Below, piece by piece: positions 1-8,107 of a DNA stretch of 64,000 nt. Every line of letters starts with the position of its first letter. The stretch's first letter is position 1. The stretch is taken from assembly GCF_003977755.1 (NCBI RefSeq), contig NZ_RQWN01000001.1, positions 310,001-374,000 on the forward strand, in the 5' to 3' direction. Under the pieces are notes generated by a model. The model saw nothing but the letters and a program-made list of their open reading frames with translations, was not told where the DNA came from and searched no databases. Both the position numbers and the translations under genes were made by a program. The stretch is from Haloterrigena salifodinae. GTDB taxonomy: Archaea; Halobacteriota; Halobacteria; Halobacteriales; Natrialbaceae.

Positions 1-1350
1 GAGGGCGGCCGTCGCGTCCTGCGTGACGTCGCTGTTCTGCTCGGCGCTGGTGTCGTAGTCGTAGGACATCCCCGGCGCGTTCTCGACGTCGTTGCCGCCG
101 ATGGTGACGGTCGTACTCGAGGTCTGCGCCTCGGAGTCGTACGTGTACCCCGGCGACGCGTACACGTTGAGCGCAGCGGCGGTGCCAATCTGTGCGTTGT
201 AGTTCTGCTGGGAGGCCATCTGGACGGCCTCGGCCTCGCTGTCGTTGACAGCGATGGCAACCGCGGTGTTCTGGAGGTTGATATTAAGCTGCTCGACGGC
301 CTGCTCCTGCTCGACGCTGGTCGTCGCGGTCTGGGAGTCGTCCTTGTCCTTCTTGTTCTTCGACGGCGTCTCCGTGTCGACGACGCTGCTGTCGCCGGCG
401 GACGCGACGTTCATTTCTCCCATCGAGGCGAGCAGGTTGGCGGCGTTGGCGGAGCCGGTCTGTTCGTTGAGATTGGTCTGGTCGGTGACCTGGATCGCCG
501 TCGCGGTGCTGTTCTCGCCGACGGCGATGGCGACGGCGGCACCCTGTTCGTTGACGTTCGTCTGTTCGACGGCCTGCTGCTGAGTCAGCCAACTGTTCGC
601 GTTCTGCTCGGTGTATTCACCCTGGCCGGCGTAGATGTTCGACGCGTTGGCGGCACCTTCCTGCAGGTTCTGGTTGTGCTGGTCGGTCTGCTGAAGGGCC
701 GTCGCCGAACTGTTCTCCGCGGCGAGGGCGAAGGCGACGCTTTGTTCGTTGTAGTTCCCCTGCGCGACGTCCTGGGTCTGGGTCACGCTGGCCTCGGCGG
801 ACTGCGTGACGGTCTTTTTGTCGCCTTTCTCCGTGGCGACGCCCCAGCCGTTGAACTGCTGGCTGCCGTCGTCGCCCATGATCATGTAAACGGTGCCGAC
901 GTCTTCGAACTGAGTCGTCTGGCTGCTGACGACGTTGTTCTCGGCCGACGCCTCGCCGGTCTGGGAGTTGGCGTTGAGCTGGTTGGCTTCCTGGATGGCG
1001 GTCGCCTCGCCGCCGTCGATCGCGATCGACACCGCCTCACCCTGCTCGTTGATGTTCACCTGGTCGACGTTCTGGTGCTGGACGACCTCGGTGTTGCTCA
1101 TCTGGTCCGCGTTCAGTTCCTCGGACGCGTGAGCGTCGATATACTCCTCAAGGCTCGTTTCGTTGAGATCGGCGCCGAAGACCAGGTAGAGGTCTTCGCC
1201 GTCCTCGAGCGCGTGAACCGAATCGGCCTGAACGTCGTCGTTGCCGCCCGCCATCGCGGCTGGCGCGCCGGCGGCCAGCATCGATATGGAAACGATACAG
1301 GCCATCAATACTGTCGTATACCGTGAGCGTCTCGTGTCTTCTTCTGTCAT
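1..1350 (-). CDS. Secreted Gln/Asn-rich curlin-like repeat protein (C-terminus beyond window)
   Basis: The frame is open from the ATG at 1350 to base 1, giving 450 residues without a stop, so the 3' end is missing. It is absent as a complete ORF because it leaves the window. Residues 10-35 form a Sec-type signal peptide (hydrophobic core then APAAMA). The mature part has four copies of a ~45-residue unit (about 93-139, 193-238, 259-304, 350-396) and the start of a fifth near 440. The unit reads Q-D/N-V-x-Q-x-N-x3-Q, then V-A-x-A, A-T-A-x-Q, Q-x-N-x-N-x-Q-x-G and A-x-A-x-N. Regularly spaced Gln and Asn with alternating small residues resemble curlin and other amyloid repeats. The same unit occurs once in each of the two small secreted proteins transcribed divergently at 2454 and 2822. 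A Lys/Asp linker lies near 331-338. Amyloid assembly is inferred; I know no named family. Confidence 0.8.
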   Translation of the reverse strand, partial: MTEEDTRRSRYTTVLMACIVSISMLAAGAPAAMAGGNDDVQADSVHALEDGEDLYLVFGADLNETSLEEYIDAHASEELNADQMSNTEVVQHQNVDQVNINEQGEAVSIAIDGGEATAIQEANQLNANSQTGEASAENNVVSSQTTQFEDVGTVYMIMGDDGSQQFNGWGVATEKGDKKTVTQSAEASVTQTQDVAQGNYNEQSVAFALAAENSSATALQQTDQHNQNLQEGAANASNIYAGQGEYTEQNANSWLTQQQAVEQTNVNEQGAAVAIAVGENSTATAIQVTDQTNLNEQTGSANAANLLASMGEMNVASAGDSSVVDTETPSKNKKDKDDSQTATTSVEQEQAVEQLNINLQNTAVAIAVNDSEAEAVQMASQQNYNAQIGTAAALNVYASPGYTYDSEAQTSSTTVTIGGNDVENAPGMSYDYDTSAEQNSDVTQDATAAL

Positions 1351-2303
1351 GGTAGCTCTGATTTTCGATCGTGAGTTTGTTCTGTTGCTGAACGATTCGA
1401 CGCGAACGGTCCTATCCCAAAGACAGACTTTGTTATCTACAGGTTGGAAAACGTATTAGTCGCCCTACTAACTAGAACTCCGCCGCTACTCGCGGAAACG
1501 ACCGTCTACCTCCGTCAGACGACCACTCGAACGGTAGATTACGCGCCGCCGTCCGGAGGTATCGACGGATCGACACGCGATACGCCACTACAGTCGACTT
1601 GCGCTCGAAATTCTTTGGTTCGAGAAGCTTCGTCGACAGCGAAATCCAAAACTACCGACGGTAGTAGTGATCGAATGACCGTTTCACGATCGAAGGGAGA
1701 TCCAGCGCGCGGTAATCGACAGTGAACGTGAACGGTTATCATCGATGGCGAGGAGAGGTCGGCTTCAACGGCGGCCGCGATCAGCACGGCGCGACGGCTG
1801 TCGTGGGAGCGATCGCGGCGCCTCTCGACGCGATGCGGTCCGACGCTCACCGGACGGGCCGAGAAGGGGACACCGACGATCAGCGCCGGGGACGGGAGCC
1901 GCGGGTCTCGGAGCCGATCGATCCATCACCGCTGCCGGACCAGCAATTCTCGCGCGATGAGTCCCAGTGTGTAGACGCGACGATGCCGGCATCACGCGAC
2001 CTCAGAGCGGTGCTTAATCGACTCTCGAGGCCTTCGAACCGACGGTATCGATGAGCGCACGCTCGTTCACGGCGACAAACTGTTCTCGTCGCAGAGACTA
2101 TTACGACGTCGCGATCAAAGTTACAACCGTTCTACACGGGCTATTTCGAAGACGGCGCGGAATCAGTTCTGCGGGAAATTCCGGTAGTAGCGAATATCTA
2201 TCCGCATCTGCGCAAATATTACACACATTTCATTATATTTCCCACACATCCTAACGATTGTAACTGTCCGCAATATCGGCTATACATCGTAACCGTTGGG
2301 CGG
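1351..2303. other. Long intergenic region between the divergent repeat-protein genes
   Basis: About 950 bases with no convincing gene. Short ORFs occur on both strands but have Arg/Ser-rich shadow-like compositions and no recognisable motif. The region becomes AT-rich near 2190-2260, unlike the surrounding GC-rich DNA, which suggests regulatory sequence for the divergent secreted-protein genes. Confidence 0.5.
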
Positions 2304-2310
2304 TTTAATA
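2304..2310 (+). promoter_or_regulatory. Candidate TATA box for the tandem repeat-protein genes
   Basis: TTTAATA follows a GC-rich BRE-like context (GGGCGG). Transcription would begin near 2330-2335, leaving a leader of about 120 nt before the ATG at 2454. No better AT-rich element lies closer to the start codon. Confidence 0.4.
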
Positions 2311-2350
2311 CGGAACCCGGCTGTTGTCCCGACTGGGCAACACGGCACGT

Positions 2351-2425
2351 TGGACGCTCGAGACGGCTGGATTCGCGATCCGTGCGACGCGAATCGGTCA
2401 CGATGGAGTGGTGCTCGAGCGTCCA
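2351..2425 (+). promoter_or_regulatory. Nested inverted repeats in the 5' leader of the repeat-protein genes
   Basis: TGGACGCTCGAG at 2351-2362 pairs perfectly with CTCGAGCGTCCA at 2414-2425. Inside it, GATTCGCG (2370-2377) pairs with CGCGAATC (2388-2395). Together they would make a long two-stem hairpin in the leader RNA, ending 28 nt before the ATG at 2454. It could be an RNA regulatory element or, as DNA, an operator. Only the pairing is directly seen. Confidence 0.5.
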
Positions 2426-2453
2426 TGCGTGTGTGGGTGCCCAATGATCAACC

Positions 2454-2807
2454 ATGAAACGCGCAATCTCGATGCTGCTGGCGATCGCACTGGCGTGTAG
2501 CTTCGTATTCGCAGGCGGTGCGGCTGCACAGGTCAACGACGTCGATCAGGATACCAACCAAGACGCGGACCTCTACCAGAAGGCGGACGCGGACGTCAAG
2601 CAGTACCAGGACGTCGACCAGACGAACGTCGGCCTGCAGGGCGGTAACGTCGCGTACGCTGCGTACGGAGACGCCACGGCCCAGAACAACCTAGACCAGA
2701 CCAACAACAACGCGCAAATCGGTGTCGCTGAAGCCGAGAACGAAGGCGAAATCAACCAGGACGCCAACCAGGAAGCTGAGAACGAGTTCGAGTTCGACGT
2801 CTTCTAA
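2454..2807 (+). CDS. Small secreted curlin-like repeat protein, copy 1
   Basis: 117 residues. Residues 1-26 are a Sec signal peptide (MKRAISMLLAIALACSF, then AGGAAAQ, cut probably after AAA or AAQ). The mature protein is ~91 residues, very acidic and Gln/Asn-rich. Residues 27-50 carry short D-Q/N-D motifs. Residues ~51-93 hold one copy of the repeat unit found four times in the divergent large protein at 1-1350: QDVDQTNVG, QGGNVAYAAYG, DATAQNNLDQTNNNAQIG. The end is acidic (EINQDANQEAENEFEFDVF). It is followed after 14 bases by a near-duplicate, so the two are probably cotranscribed. A single-repeat secreted subunit of an extracellular fibre is a reasonable inference from the repeat pattern, not a demonstrated function. 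Confidence 0.85.
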   Translation: MKRAISMLLAIALACSFVFAGGAAAQVNDVDQDTNQDADLYQKADADVKQYQDVDQTNVGLQGGNVAYAAYGDATAQNNLDQTNNNAQIGVAEAENEGEINQDANQEAENEFEFDVF

Positions 2808-2821
2808 CTACCTGATCAACA

Positions 2822-3175
2822 ATGAAACGCGCAATCTCGATGCTGCTGGCGATCGCACTGGCGTGTAGCTTCGTATTCGCAGGCGGTGCGGCTGCACAGG
2901 TCAACGACGTCGATCAGGATACCAACCAAGACGCGGACCTCTACCAGAAGGCAGACGCGGACGTCAAGCAGTCCCAGGACGTCGACCAGACGAACGTCGG
3001 CCTGCAGGGCGGTAACGCCGCCTACGCAGTGTTCGGCGACGCCACGGCCGAGAACAACCTAGACCAGTCGAACACCAACGTGCAGTACGGTGAGGCCGAG
3101 GCCGAGAACGAAGGCGAAATCAACCAGGACGCCGACCAAGACGCTGAGAACGAGTTCGAAGTCGACTTGTTCTAG
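2822..3175 (+). CDS. Small secreted curlin-like repeat protein, copy 2
   Basis: 117 residues, a tandem duplicate of the gene at 2454 with the same signal peptide. The two genes are identical for about the first 140 bases and nearly so to about 180; they diverge after that, so the proteins share their N-terminal halves but differ through the repeat unit (QSQDVDQTNVG, QGGNAAYAVFG, DATAENNLDQSNTNVQYG) and the acidic tail ending EFEVDLF. Gln, Asn and Gly positions of the repeat are kept while others vary, which suggests selection on a structural pattern. The 8 bases before the ATG (TGATCAAC) are also duplicated. A T-rich terminator follows at 3197. Confidence 0.85.
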   Translation: MKRAISMLLAIALACSFVFAGGAAAQVNDVDQDTNQDADLYQKADADVKQSQDVDQTNVGLQGGNAAYAVFGDATAENNLDQSNTNVQYGEAEAENEGEINQDADQDAENEFEVDLF

Positions 3176-3195
3176 AGACACCCGGCTTCGTTCAC

Positions 3196-3204
3196 TTATT
3201 TTTA
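3196..3204 (+). terminator. T-rich terminator after the tandem repeat-protein genes
   Basis: A T-tract (TTATTTTTA) 20 bases past the stop codon of the second copy, typical of haloarchaeal intrinsic termination. No strong hairpin is needed or seen. Confidence 0.5.
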
Positions 3205-3542
3205 GCCGTCCGGATCGCCGCGGACCGCAGTTGTGCTCCCGAGCAGCCAACGGTAGACGGTTCGTCGGAATAGGTCGTGAGTAACGATCTAGTCACGGCC
3301 GAAAGCACAGCGAGAACACGCTCTCCGATCCGGGACCGCGTTCGATCGCGTGCGGATGTGAAAAACGCCGAGTAACTCGTCGTAGGGCCGTTTCATACGT
3401 CGGTCTCGCGAACCGATGCCGTCGCGTTAGCCGTCGGTTAGCAGACGCATATCGGCGAAACAGTTCTATTGATTAATGCCCGAATCTGCCGACGAGTGAG
3501 TCGCTGGGGACGGGCAACGTGCCTCGGTGTGCTAACTGAACT
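3205..3542. other. Intergenic region
   Basis: No gene is supported here. An AT-rich element at 3469-3478 (TTGATTAATG) lies 65 bases before the ATG at 3543 and may be that gene's TATA box. Confidence 0.4.
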
Positions 3543-4175
3543 ATGAACCAACGAACCGCGATGGCGCTGACGATCGGACTCGCGGCAGCGGCGGTCGTCG
3601 CCGCGGGTGCAACGGTGATCGCTGCACCCGGCGACCCCGTAAGCGATTCGACCGAAAACACATCAGAAACCATGACAGAAACCGAATTCTCGTGGGGTAC
3701 GGTAATCCACGAAACCGACGCCGAAACCGGCGACACCAACGTCGAAGTGATCGTCGACGCCGACGATGACGTTTCGATATCGACGATAACGGCCCCCAAT
3801 GCGACGGATATGCACGACGAGGAAGCGACTGCGGACGGTGCAGCCGTCGAGTCGTTCCCCTGGGGTGCAGTGATCCACGCGACCGATTCCGACACCGGTG
3901 CGACCGATATCGAAGTGATCGTCGACGCCGATAATGACGTCTCGGTTTCCGTGACGTCGGTCTCCGAAAACGGCGCTCAGACGTCGACATCGTCCGTTAC
4001 GTCCACGAGCGAAACGAGCGAGAGCGGGACGAGCGTCTCGCAGTCGACCGTTTCGTCGACGACGGTCTCCAGCTCGTCAGTGACCAGTAGCTCCACCGAC
4101 GTCACGCAATCGTCGAACTGGACCGATGACGAATCGATCGAGATCGATATCGATACCGAGACGGAGGACGACTAA
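3543..4175 (+). CDS. Secreted Ser/Thr-rich protein with a duplicated domain
   Basis: 210 residues. Residues 1-28 form a signal peptide or N-terminal anchor (long Ala/Val core, ending VIAAPG). The body holds two copies of a ~32-residue unit, near 49-80 and 103-135: FSWGTVIHETD...TNVEVIVDAD and FPWGAVIHATD...TDIEVIVDAD. The shared W-G-x-V-I-H core and E-V-I-V-D-A-D strand look like a small beta-structure. Residues ~136-190 are a Ser/Thr-rich stretch of the kind that is O-glycosylated in haloarchaeal surface proteins, followed by an acidic end. There is no C-terminal membrane segment. I do not recognise the family. Its position next to the curlin-like genes suggests an extracellular role. Confidence 0.75.
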   Translation: MNQRTAMALTIGLAAAAVVAAGATVIAAPGDPVSDSTENTSETMTETEFSWGTVIHETDAETGDTNVEVIVDADDDVSISTITAPNATDMHDEEATADGAAVESFPWGAVIHATDSDTGATDIEVIVDADNDVSVSVTSVSENGAQTSTSSVTSTSETSESGTSVSQSTVSSTTVSSSSVTSSSTDVTQSSNWTDDESIEIDIDTETEDD

Positions 4176-4232
4176 CTCGAGCGGATACGCCGCTCCGGGA
4201 TGTGGCTTCCGAGCGCCGCTGATTCCGATTTT

Positions 4233-5627
4233 CTAGTGGCCCTGTTCGTCCAGCACCGCTCGCTCCGCACGGCGGGTGACCTCGCGGATCGGAACGTCGG
4301 TCTCGCGCGCGACCGCCAGCGCGTCGTCGTGCTCCGCGCTCACGTCGTACATCTCGCCGTCCGCGTCGCTGGCGATTTTCACGGTCACCTCGTAGGTTTC
4401 GCCGTCGATCTCGAGGGCCACCGTCTCGAACGCCCGATTCGCGATCCACCGGTGGGTCGCGCCGGCGTCCCGCACGCCTAGCGTTCCGGTCTCTTCGGCC
4501 AGCGCTCGAGCGACCCGTTCCCGATCCGCGGGCTTGCAGATCACCTTCACGAGGTGGCCGGGGCGGGACTTCTTCATCGTCGCCGGCAGAATCGAAACGT
4601 CCCGCGCGCCCGCGGTGGCCAGCGTCTCCTGCAGGCCGCCCAACACCTCCGGCGTCGCGTCGTCGAGGTTCGTCTCGAGGACGGCGATGTCGTCCTTCAC
4701 GAGTTCCCCCTGCGCGTCGCCGACCAGGACACGGAGAACGTTCGGGTGGGGATCGAGGTCGTAGCCGCCGGCACCGTAGCCGACCCCGCGGAGATCGAGC
4801 GAGGGCAACGAGTCGACGCCGTCGGCGAAGTGGCCCAGAATCGCCGCGCCGGTGGGCGTCAGCAGTTCGGCGTCGACGGGGCCGCCACGAAGCGGCCAGT
4901 CCGCTCGCTCGGCGATCTCGACGACGGCCGGCGTCGGGACGGGATACTCGCCGTGGCTCATCGAGACGCTGCCGCCGCCCGTCGCGAGCGGCGTCGTGAC
5001 GATCCGATCGGGCTCGAGGTCGTGGACGAGCAGGGCGGCACCGACCACGTCGGCGATGGCGTCGTCGGCGCCCACCTCGTGGAAGTGGATCTCCGCTATG
5101 GACTCGCCGTGGACGCTGGCCTCGGCCTCGCCGAGTAGTTCGAAGATGGCGAGTGCGTCGCGTTCGACCGCCGGCTCGAGGTCCATCCCCGCGACGATGT
5201 CGCGGACCTCGCGGTAGCTCCGGTGGGGGCCGTGTCCCTCGGCGCGGACGTCATCTCCGTCGGAATGAGCGTGAGCGTCCTCGTCGGCGTGAGTGTGTCC
5301 GTCGTCGCCGTGCTCGTGTGCGTGGTTATGGCCGTGCTCGTGTGCGTCGTGGTCGGTATCGCCGTGGTCGTGACCGTGGCCGCCGTCGCCGCTGGACTCC
5401 CCGTCGCCGTCGTGCCCGCCGGGATCCGCCGCCGAATCGTCGGTCAGGAACACGTCGACCGTCGTCGACGAAATGCCGCACTTGACCGTCTCGTCGATTT
5501 CGTACGCCACCGCGAGGTCGTCCGTCACGGCCTCGAGGGCGTCGGGATCGGCGCCGGCATCGAGCAAGGCGGCGAGGATCATATCGCCGCTTGCGCCCAT
5601 GCGGCCGTCGAACGCGAGGAGTTGCAT
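4233..5627 (-). CDS. larC: LarC-type nickel insertion protein (DUF111 family)
   Basis: 464 residues from MQLLAFDGRMGASGDM, the conserved family N-terminus; a longer in-frame start at 5792 would add 55 residues unlike the family. LarC proteins insert nickel into the pyridinium-bis-thiocarboxylate nucleotide to make the NPN cofactor used by lactate racemase and relatives. Conserved stretches visible are the N-terminal GASGDM, the AEIHFHEVGA(D)DAI motif, a TPTGAAIL segment and NLDDATPE. A His/Asp-rich linker (DNA ~5250-5410, residues about 75-125) holds more than a dozen histidines and probably binds or stores Ni2+. It is one continuous frame, unlike the frameshifted larC1/larC2 of lactobacilli. 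No larA, larB or larE is in the window. Confidence 0.9.
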   Translation of the reverse strand: MQLLAFDGRMGASGDMILAALLDAGADPDALEAVTDDLAVAYEIDETVKCGISSTTVDVFLTDDSAADPGGHDGDGESSGDGGHGHDHGDTDHDAHEHGHNHAHEHGDDGHTHADEDAHAHSDGDDVRAEGHGPHRSYREVRDIVAGMDLEPAVERDALAIFELLGEAEASVHGESIAEIHFHEVGADDAIADVVGAALLVHDLEPDRIVTTPLATGGGSVSMSHGEYPVPTPAVVEIAERADWPLRGGPVDAELLTPTGAAILGHFADGVDSLPSLDLRGVGYGAGGYDLDPHPNVLRVLVGDAQGELVKDDIAVLETNLDDATPEVLGGLQETLATAGARDVSILPATMKKSRPGHLVKVICKPADRERVARALAEETGTLGVRDAGATHRWIANRAFETVALEIDGETYEVTVKIASDADGEMYDVSAEHDDALAVARETDVPIREVTRRAERAVLDEQGH

Positions 5628-5875
5628 AGCTAGGTCGCCGGGTGGAACGATCAAAAAGGCATCCTCTCGGCGCGACTCCCATGGAGGACGATCGGTGCCG
5701 CGCCGCGTTCTCGAGGCGGTGTCGGTACCACCAAAACCGACCGATGCCGGTACATCTATGTGCGCTGCCGTATCAGTTAGATATGGTATCAACTAGCACA
5801 GGCAACGACGTAGGCTAGCAAAAAACCTATCCGCTCACGAAGCGGAACCACTGACATCGCCGTCCATCCCGAATC

Positions 5876-8107
5876 ATGAACGAAGTTCAACTGGAGGTTG
5901 CGAAGGCGTACCCGAACGACTCGGGTCGTGGTATCGCCCGACTCGACCCGGACACGCTGTTGCATCTGAAGCTGAGTCCGGGCGACATCATCGAAATCGA
6001 AGGCGCCGACACCACCGCCGCGAAGGTGTGGCGCGCCGACCGGCAGGACTGGAACACCGATACGGTCCGCATCGACGGGTTCACCCGTCAGAACGCCGAC
6101 GTGGGGATCGGCGAACGCGTAACGATCCGCAAGGCAGAAGCCACGAAAGCGGATAAGCTCACCCTCGCACCCCCCGAGGAGGCGTCGGTCCAGTTCGGTT
6201 CCGACGCCGCCGGCATGGTGAAACGACAGATCTTGAAGCGGCCGGTCGTTGGTCGCGACATCGTCCCGGTCATGTCCTCGACGAACCATCCGTTCATGCG
6301 GTCGCCCGGCCAGGCGATTCCGCTCATCGCCGTCGAGACGGAACCCGAGGGCGTGGTCCTCATCACCGAGGACACCGACGTCGAGCTTCGCGAGGAGCCA
6401 ATTTCGGGCTTCGAGAAGACCGGCGGCGGCATTACCTACGAGGACATCGGCGGTCTGCAAAGCGAGATCCAGCGGGTCAGGGAGATGGTCGAACTCCCGA
6501 TGAAACACCCGCAGATCTTCAAGAAGCTCGGCATCGAGCCCCCGCAGGGCGTCCTGCTCCACGGGCCGCCGGGCACCGGGAAGACCCTACTCGCGAAGGC
6601 CGTCGCCAACGAGACCTCCGCGAGCTTCTTCTCGATTGCGGGGCCGGAGATCATCTCGAAGTACTACGGCGAGTCCGAACAGCAGTTACGGGAGATCTTC
6701 GAGGACGCGACCGAGGAGTCGCCGTCGATCATCTTTATCGACGAACTCGACTCCATCGCACCCAAACGGGAGGACGTCACCGGCGAGGTCGAGCGCCGCG
6801 TCGTCGCCCAGTTGCTGACCATGATGGACGGTCTCGAGTCCCGCGGTCAGGTCATCGTCATCGCGGCGACCAACCGCGTGGACTCGGTTGACCCCGCACT
6901 GCGCCGGCCGGGCCGGTTCGACCGCGAGATCGAGATCGGCGTCCCGGACGAAGTCGGCCGCGAGGAGATCCTCCAGATCCACACCCGTGGGATGCCCCTC
7001 TCTGACGACGTCGACCTCGGCCACCTGGCCGACGAGACCCACGGCTTCGTCGGCGCCGACATCGAGTCGCTGACGAAGGAAGCCGCGATGAAGGCCCTGC
7101 GCCGGTACCTCCCCGAGATCGATCTCGACGAGGAGGACATCCCGCCGAGCCTGATCGACCGGATGATCGTCAAGCGCCAGGACTTCCGCGGCGCCTTGAA
7201 CGAGGTCGAGCCCTCGGCGATGCGGGAGGTGCTCGTCGAACTCCCGAAGATCTCCTGGGACGACGTCGGCGGCCTCCACTCCGCCAAGGAGCAGGTCCAG
7301 GAGTCCGTCGAGTGGCCCCTCTCGAACCCCGAGCGGTTCGACCGGCTGGGGGTCGATCCGCCAGCCGGCGTCTTGCTGTACGGGCCGCCGGGCACCGGGA
7401 AGACGCTCATGGCGAAAGCGGTCGCCAACGAGACCAACGCGAACTTCATCTCGGTGCGCGGTCCGCAACTCCTCTCGAAGTGGGTCGGCGAATCGGAGAA
7501 GGCCATCCGGCAGACCTTCCGCAAGGCGCGGCAGGTCTCCCCGACGGTGATCTTCTTCGACGAGCTCGACGCGCTCGCGCCGGGACGGGGCGGTGAAACC
7601 GGCTCGAACGTCTCCGAGCGAGTCGTCAACCAGCTCCTGACGGAACTCGACGGGCTCGAGGAGATGGAGAACGTGATGGTCATCGGCGCGACCAACCGAC
7701 CGGACATGATCGACCCCGCGCTGCTGCGCTCGGGGCGGTTCGACCGGCTGGTCATGATCGGCGAACCCGACGTCGACGGCCGCGAACGCATCCTCGAGAT
7801 CCACACCGAGAACACGCCGCTGGCCGCGGACGTCACGCTGCGCGAGATCGCCGAGATCACCGACGGCTACGTCGGCAGCGACCTCGAGTCGATCGCCCGC
7901 GAGGCGGCCATCGAGGCGCTGCGCGAGGACGAGGAGGCCGACATCGTCGAGATGCGCCACTTCCGGCAGGCCATGGAGAACGTTCGGCCGACGATCACGG
8001 ACGACATCCTGGACTACTACGAGCAGATCGAAGAGGAGTTCCAGGGCGGCGGATCGGGCGGCCCCGGACCGACGGGTCGCCGCGACAGTCGGATCGGCTT
8101 CCAGTAA
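5876..8107 (+). CDS. Cdc48/VAT-type AAA+ ATPase
   Basis: 743 residues, the usual length for archaeal VAT/p97. Residues 1-180 form the N-domain (double-psi barrel plus four-stranded part, starting [19 protein letters not shown]). The D1 ring has Walker A GPPGTGKT at ~230-237 and Walker [11 protein letters not shown] near 285-294. D2 has Walker A at ~503-510 and Walker [11 protein letters not shown] near 560-570. Both have the sensor N in ATNR and the arginine-finger region RPGRFDR/RSGRFDR. The protein unfolds ubiquitin-like-tagged or damaged proteins for the proteasome and other pathways. The C-terminus is a Gly-rich tail. It is monocistronic with a terminator at 8129. Confidence 0.97.

Follow-up and report, generated by a model that had tools for sequence, protein, structure and literature searches.

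The window analysed here is a 64,000-nucleotide stretch (G000:C1:310001-374000) of the 4.96 Mb haloarchaeal genome of Haloterrigena salifodinae, and its first 3,175 positions carry a divergent locus of secreted repeat proteins. The reading frame of the large protein spans 450 residues on the minus strand (1-1350) and is open-ended at the window edge; in the whole-genome sequence the full protein has 504 residues (L007:9836-11350), its C-terminal end lying beyond the window. Its architecture comprises a Sec-type signal, a short N-terminal region and five repeats. Two tandem small genes, each encoding a single repeat, run divergently from it at a distance of 1.1 kb. In the list below, repeats 1-4 are bounded by half-unit alignment and repeat-length measurement, repeat 5 by the full-length sequence and the alignment, and the two small genes are taken from the open reading frame (ORF) list and the small-protein profile.

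1-1350, minus strand: large five-repeat secreted protein, residues 1-450 of 504; the remainder lies at G000:C1:309836-310000
1249-1350, minus strand: Sec-type signal peptide of the large protein, residues 1-34, cleavage near AMA/GG; read by eye, without a Tat motif by pattern
937-1092, minus strand: large protein repeat 1, residues 87-138
637-792, minus strand: large protein repeat 2, residues 187-238
436-594, minus strand: large protein repeat 3, residues 253-305
166-321, minus strand: large protein repeat 4, residues 344-395
1-9, minus strand: large protein repeat 5, of which only the first three residues (448-450) lie in the window
2454-2807, plus strand: small secreted protein 1, 117 residues, one repeat
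2589-2744, plus strand: repeat of small protein 1, about residues 46-97
2822-3175, plus strand: small secreted protein 2, 117 residues, one repeat; tandem paralogue of small protein 1
2957-3112, plus strand: repeat of small protein 2, about residues 46-97

An initial annotation of this DNA had described a divergent locus of one multi-repeat and two single-repeat secreted proteins, and the genes and positions are as it gave them, in a locus that proved to be conserved. Its account of the repeats needs partial correction: four repeats and the start of a fifth do lie in the window, but the unit is 52-53 residues long rather than about 45, and there are five in all. The Sec signals it had proposed are Sec-type by eye, and the large protein lacks a Tat motif by pattern. 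The acidic composition it had noted is equally evident, with D+E at 15.7% and K+R at 1.5% in the mature large protein, which has no Arg, and a pI of 4.05 for all three mature proteins. The regular Gln/Asn spacing is confirmed as a periodic unit, whose core motif (searched as Q...Q.N.[NSTD].[QE]) occurs in 10 copies in the 504-residue protein; when the mature sequence was shuffled 10,000 times, at least one copy appeared in 341 cases and never more than two.

The unit consists of two related halves, each with the core QxxxQxNxNxQ, the first half reading A-x-V-x-Q-x-Q-x-V-x-Q-x-N-x-N-x-Q...A-x-A-x-A and the second A-x-A-x-Q-x-S-x-Q-x-N-x-N-x-Q-x-G-x-A-x-A-x-N. Its variation was followed in an alignment (A2) of 54 of the 61 related loci that hold a large protein, seven others (L063, L067, L068, L070, L093, L096 and L110) being left out as duplicates, as close to a retained row or for an over-long start. 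Across 270 and 269 half units from these 54 proteins the core Q and N are conserved at 80-100%, and the inward columns have a mean entropy of 0.37 and 0.42 bits, compared with 1.87 and 2.2 bits for the outward columns. Alternate residues of the unit are nearly invariant, being Gln, Asn or small, which is the pattern of a buried ladder. In all 54 aligned relatives the lengths of repeats 1-4 are 52, 52, 53 and 52 residues, and in 51 of the 54 repeat 5 is 52 residues long, with bounds set by the analyst on the alignment; the four linkers between them range over 45-53, 10-75, 38-83 and 37-60 residues. A constant repeat length combined with variable linkers fits what equal layers need. Five repeat matches per large protein were counted in 60 of the 61 and six in one, and the core motif appears in 84 of 5244 ORFs of the named related loci, which by position are large proteins, their fragments or small secreted proteins. 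Conservation, entropy, fixed lengths and the shuffles of the core motif together point to genuine repeats that are constrained and constant in size. Comparison with the orthologue in genome G002 (nonsynonymous divergence, dN, 0.098; synonymous divergence, dS, 0.336) indicates that the large protein is under purifying selection.

Distribution and single-repeat partners

Of 61 genomes compared, 30 carry a relative of the large protein, the present one included; all 30 are among the 37 genomes of the same family, and none of the 24 outside it has one. A profile search of 391 genomes sampled from the taxonomic order found relatives in 97, of which 84 belong to the same family and the rest to three further families (10, 2 and 1). 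A scan of 84,980 species, one genome each, seeded by two peptide patterns, yielded at least 65 loci, all haloarchaeal by title, and this is a lower bound because the scan started from those two patterns; 61 of the 65 hold a large protein. The named loci belong to Natrialbaceae, Haladaptataceae, Haloferacaceae (Halegenticoccus, Halogranum) and Halalkalicoccaceae, none being titled Haloferax, and the closest named relative found for the large protein is that of Haloterrigena salina JCM 13891, 99% identical. Among viral contigs, 96 stretches matched a pattern and none encodes a relative. No description of the family was found in the literature searched, a search whose reach excluded most subscription journals and preprints.

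In a tree of 54 large proteins, 31 from Natrialbaceae, all lacking a Tat motif, form one group; the other group has 23 members of several families, and 21 of these carry the motif, the Sec or Tat label denoting the pattern RR.[YFS][LIVMTG] within the first 70 residues and not the output of a predictor. The window's genome carries one large protein from each group. A paralogue with a Tat motif (RRGYLKG) and a Lys-rich tail is encoded at L008:6431-7993 on the plus strand. Against this genome, the small-protein profile retrieves both small genes and matches the large protein and a paralogue on contig 3 five times each, followed by a curlin-repeat protein at E 0.14, discussed below, and a further match at E 0.22.

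A single-repeat ORF was counted as a partner if it lay divergently within 3 kb upstream of the large gene and either scored more than 5 bits for a half unit or matched the whole unit. Such a partner accompanies the large gene at 28 of 39 Sec-type loci and at 1 of 22 Tat-type loci (Fisher p 1.8e-7, uncorrected for shared descent); among 3984 other ORFs the same criteria pick out 5, four of which are small secreted proteins similar in appearance, two of these at the Tat-type loci L099 and L104. Upstream sequence was short at six loci (below 500 bases at L084 and L117, below 2500 at L090, L096, L100 and L102). L095 and L098, which lack the Tat motif inside a mostly Tat clade, both have divergent single-repeat genes. 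That partners go with Sec deserves attention, since chains pass through Sec unfolded and Tat generally exports proteins already folded.

Two variants of the small genes may be mentioned here. At L065, L068, L070 and L078 the upstream small secreted proteins appear by eye to have the second half unit first, as if circularly permuted, and Haladaptatus salinisoli has a chromosomal tandem of five small single-repeat genes (L125:5896-7852), with no large protein within the 13.8 kb fetched. As to the C-terminus, a PGF-CTERM tail (PF18204), an archaeosortase anchoring signal at the cell surface, is present in 5 of 25 relatives scanned and is not matched by the window's full-length large protein. By the PGFG pattern, L090 and L098 end in a tail of this type and may overlap those five.

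Predicted structure and comparison with curli and Fap

The structure of the large protein was predicted with AlphaFold2 on the H. salina orthologue, using 54 sequences. The predicted local distance difference test score (pLDDT), averaged over ten-residue blocks, is 86-95 in repeat cores and 55-78 at repeat edges; 142 of 504 residues reach at least 90, and the linkers and both termini are of low confidence. Repeats 2-5 are predicted as paired strands of 26-32 residues (181-211/215-240, 246-277/282-307, 339-368/372-397 and 443-472/476-501), and repeat 1 as a slightly broken pair (83-103, 106-111, 115-140). Where the model is confident, the proteins are predicted to be all-beta. The initial annotation had proposed looking for stacked beta-solenoids in such models; paired long strands emerged in each repeat, and the comparison with a solenoid gave a Foldseek match to CsgA (E 0.55, probability 0.01) and a VIA-align Z of 3.0. 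The fold searches (Foldseek against the PDB, VIA-align and a viral structure library) gave no significant match. By sequence, no PDB match was found for the window's large protein, and FapC chains are absent from the PDB sequence matches at E <= 10. A PhoQ sensor, the sole PDB profile match (E 0.016 over 40 residues), was taken as chance and rejected as a relative.

The initial annotation had also described the spacing as curlin-like. Read as membership of the curlin family, this is not supported: none of 25 family members matches PF07012 at E <= 10, nor do the window proteins match it, and the four window proteins scanned have no above-cut-off match in Pfam/NCBIfam. CsgG, found in 4 of 14 genomes including that of E. 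coli in a control, gave no match at E <= 0.1 in the present genome, an absence of limited weight because an archaeon has no outer membrane. With a plain hidden Markov model (HMM) of the unit, curlins came out at E 0.08 to 6. In profile comparisons with E. coli CsgA and CsgB, 57 and 27 of 100 column-shuffled decoys reached the score of the whole-unit profile, for which the first 60 of its 269 rows were used, and 3 and 10 of 100 that of the small-protein profile. The hhalign probability of the present unit against CsgA/CsgB is about 1% or less; in positive controls, themselves modest, the genus's own curlin repeats reach 30% and 26% against CsgA and CsgB, and CsgA against CsgB 64%. On profile comparison, a relationship to the E. 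coli curlins was rejected.

The HMM comparison with curlin that the initial annotation had called for, negative for E. coli CsgA/CsgB, did give a weak signal against a curlin protein of the same genome, mainly from the small proteins. This secreted protein of 207 residues (G000:C2:944884-945507; L039:994-1617) has 19-residue repeats and matches PF07012 at E 1e-36; its gene is followed by one for a 258-residue protein with two similar units and then by a further gene. Against its repeats, the small-protein profile scores 18.6 with a decoy maximum of 12.7 (n=100; hhalign probability 15.7%), and the whole-unit score is reached by 2 of 100 decoys. Both this curlin and the present proteins are secreted with alternating Gln/Asn/Ala/Val, and the small proteins share its small size and resemble it weakly in profile; the curlin differs in its 19-residue, PF07012-matching repeats and in being confined to the genus, with PF07012 in 4 of 61 relatives, all of the same genus, against 30 of those 61 for the present family. 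This weak likeness, seen in sequence profiles, could reflect either remote kinship or a style in common. Dueholm and colleagues mention one archaeal protein whose repeats are curli-like (PMC3521004).

Features shared with curli are Gln, Asn or a small residue at every second position, half units that are pseudo-symmetric, a repeat number of five, which is also that of E. coli CsgA, and major and minor proteins side by side. However, the curlin repeat, as given in PMC10192328, is about 23 residues with the motif QX10Q, whereas the present units are 52-53 residues with QxxxQxNxNxQ in each half, are separated by linkers, lack PF07012 and CsgG counterparts, and resemble E. coli CsgA/CsgB little or not at all in profile. 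A closer parallel is offered by FapC of Pseudomonas, for which PMC12392863 (PDB 9U4U) describes repeat layers at residues 45-96, 110-161 and 173-234 (52, 52 and 62 residues), one cross-beta layer each, with linkers very variable in length and highly conserved internal Asn/Gln. Imperfect equal repeats, variable linkers and conserved Asn/Gln recur here, where the units may likewise form layers, and the side-by-side FapC/FapB subunit and nucleator genes may have a counterpart in the large and single-repeat genes. The differences are three repeats in FapC and five here (60 of 61, with six in one), the core QxxxQxNxNxQ in each half unit, single-repeat partners, and a host without an outer membrane. 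In layout FapC is the closest analogue, closer than curlin, a likeness for which the PDB sequence matches at E <= 10 gave no sign of kinship.

A possible stacking system and its rivals

The best reading of these comparisons is an unnamed haloarchaeal family that would share with FapC, by analogy, a layout of fixed layers and variable linkers. The proposal, to which we would give an even chance, is that this haloarchaeal locus codes for a system of beta proteins that stack on themselves outside the cell. The large protein would then be a single chain of five equal 52-53-residue layers with variable, poorly ordered linkers between them, each layer consisting of two long strands whose inward face carries a fixed ladder of Gln, Asn and small residues; the two strands may lie in one sheet, as hairpins, or in two facing sheets, as arches. 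These layers would stack on each other, and the small proteins would be single layers able to join such a stack. The chains would cross the membrane unfolded via Sec and, once outside, assemble as a fibre or mat belonging to the cell surface or the biofilm matrix, an extracellular location that the export signals support. The large protein would start, cap or anchor the stack and the small ones would extend it; we infer both the formation of a fibre or amyloid and these nucleator and subunit roles. In some relatives anchoring may proceed through the PGF-CTERM tail, as the 5 of 25 that carry one indicate, the window's protein having none. More doubtful, and offered tentatively, is the full form of the proposal: a class of haloarchaeal functional amyloid distinct from curli and Fap, in which fibres built from single-layer subunits are nucleated or capped by a five-layer, long-strand Gln/Asn stack, and in which the forms exported by Sec have partners while those exported by Tat arrive folded and are mostly partnerless.

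Several observations weigh against a self-stacking system. By profile, 11 of the 39 Sec loci have no divergent partner; one of them, L084, has only 490 bases upstream, and six of the 11 have at that place, by eye, a degenerate secreted Q/N protein, in some cases with its two halves reversed in order. The Sec/Tat contrast is itself unclean: L097, which has a Tat-like motif, has a divergent partner, and at the Tat loci L099 and L104 a small member of the family flanks the large gene on its opposite side, so that Tat forms are mostly, not always, alone. The large-protein model is of modest overall confidence (mean pLDDT 64.7, predicted template modelling score, pTM, 0.59), with 196 residues below 50, and the small-protein model, two 21-residue strands, is of low confidence (pLDDT 57.5, pTM 0.21). 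The top three PDB chains in Foldseek are FapC, a CsgA and FapC (E 0.29, 0.55 and 3.1; probability 0.01-0.02; TM 0.06), and VIA-align to that CsgA gives Z 3.0 over 99 residues at 3.8 A; the viral structure library returned unrelated proteins with E from 1.1e-3 (TM 0.07 for the best) and TM 0.04-0.14, and because these score better E values the amyloid rankings prove nothing. Covariation between neighbouring repeats, computed to distinguish parallel stacking from hairpins, has its highest term of 17 offsets at the same position, 0.081, with 0.077 close behind at offsets 2 and 8 and an effective number of sequences (Neff) of 13.

The main rival is a folded, non-polymeric surface protein, whose five long beta-hairpins would form a large sheet or barrel-like adhesin, with the small proteins as its ligands or inhibitors. 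The predicted strands, long, paired and joined by short turns in a hairpin-like manner, agree with it, as do the 21 of 22 Tat-type forms without a divergent partner, since Tat generally exports folded proteins and at least the Tat-type form may fold inside the cell. However, single-repeat proteins built on the large protein's own unit suggest like-on-like stacking, and the five tandem single-repeat genes of L125 come with no large protein in the stretch fetched; we consider this rival possible, on the unlikely side. A disordered acidic secreted protein, with the repeats as a low-complexity spacer or hydration layer, would explain the very acidic, Arg-free, Q/N-rich composition and the low-confidence linkers and termini. 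It is nonetheless improbable, because such a spacer would not be expected to keep near-invariant inward residues, a fixed unit length and a repeat-core pLDDT of 86-95.

Two further readings are very improbable. An archaeal branch of the CsgA/CsgB family would account for the alternating Gln/Asn style and for the own-genome PF07012 protein being the small-protein profile's next match after the family (E 0.14), ahead of 100 of 100 decoys; it is opposed by the lack of PF07012 and CsgG matches, by a different unit length and motif, and by the ease with which decoys equal the whole-unit scores against CsgA and CsgB. Halocin-like antimicrobial precursors, with the small proteins as toxic peptides and the large one as an immunity or storage protein, are suggested by small secreted products and by weak NCBIfam matches to JUQZ_fam_ocin (E 0.0099 and 0.018), but these reach 16.1 and 15.3 bits against a cut-off of 40 and cover the signal-peptide region (residues 1-47 and 1-52 of 117). 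Moreover, a known haloarchaeal precursor, HFX_0892, acts via alpha-helices according to PMC12893001, whereas the present proteins are predicted to be beta.

If the more doubtful reading, that of a distinct haloarchaeal functional amyloid, is true, the family could supply the matrix amyloid of some halophilic archaea. Biofilms of Haloferax volcanii contain extracellular material positive for Congo red and thioflavin T, the genetic basis of which is not established and for which HVO_1403 has been suggested (PMC4180959). That putative amyloid and the present family are both haloarchaeal, yet no named family locus is titled Haloferax; the family offers conserved, small and easily expressed candidates in haloarchaea other than H. 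volcanii, together with a sharp prediction of 52-residue layers and an alternating Gln/Asn ladder. The family would also reveal how a stacking beta protein leaves a cell that has no outer membrane and stays dissolved at molar salt, and whether it came to the plan of fixed layers and variable linkers independently of Fap.

Other features of the locus

Rfam models gave nothing reaching gathering scores in positions 1-6000 of the window, and a promoter scan of 1351-3542 found none with models that are bacterial-type and unsuited to archaea. The first 177 bases of the two small genes are 98.9% identical to each other, above the 96.6% identity of each to its H. salina counterpart, and the last 177 bases are 85.3% identical to each other and 95.5% to the H. 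salina counterparts. Because the small genes are closer to each other than to their counterparts only in the first 177 bases, these sequence identities suggest gene conversion of the signal half between them. Downstream of the small genes lies one further candidate member of the locus, listed on the basis of homologues close to the small genes in some near relatives:

3543-4175, plus strand: possible accessory gene, 210 residues

Its product is secreted-looking, with a hydrophobic N-terminal segment, two copies of a WG..IH..D...V.VIVDAD unit and a Ser/Thr-rich tail. Homologues of the gene are present at L041-L044, L061-L063 and L073, with shorter ones at L050, Natronorubrum bangense being included.

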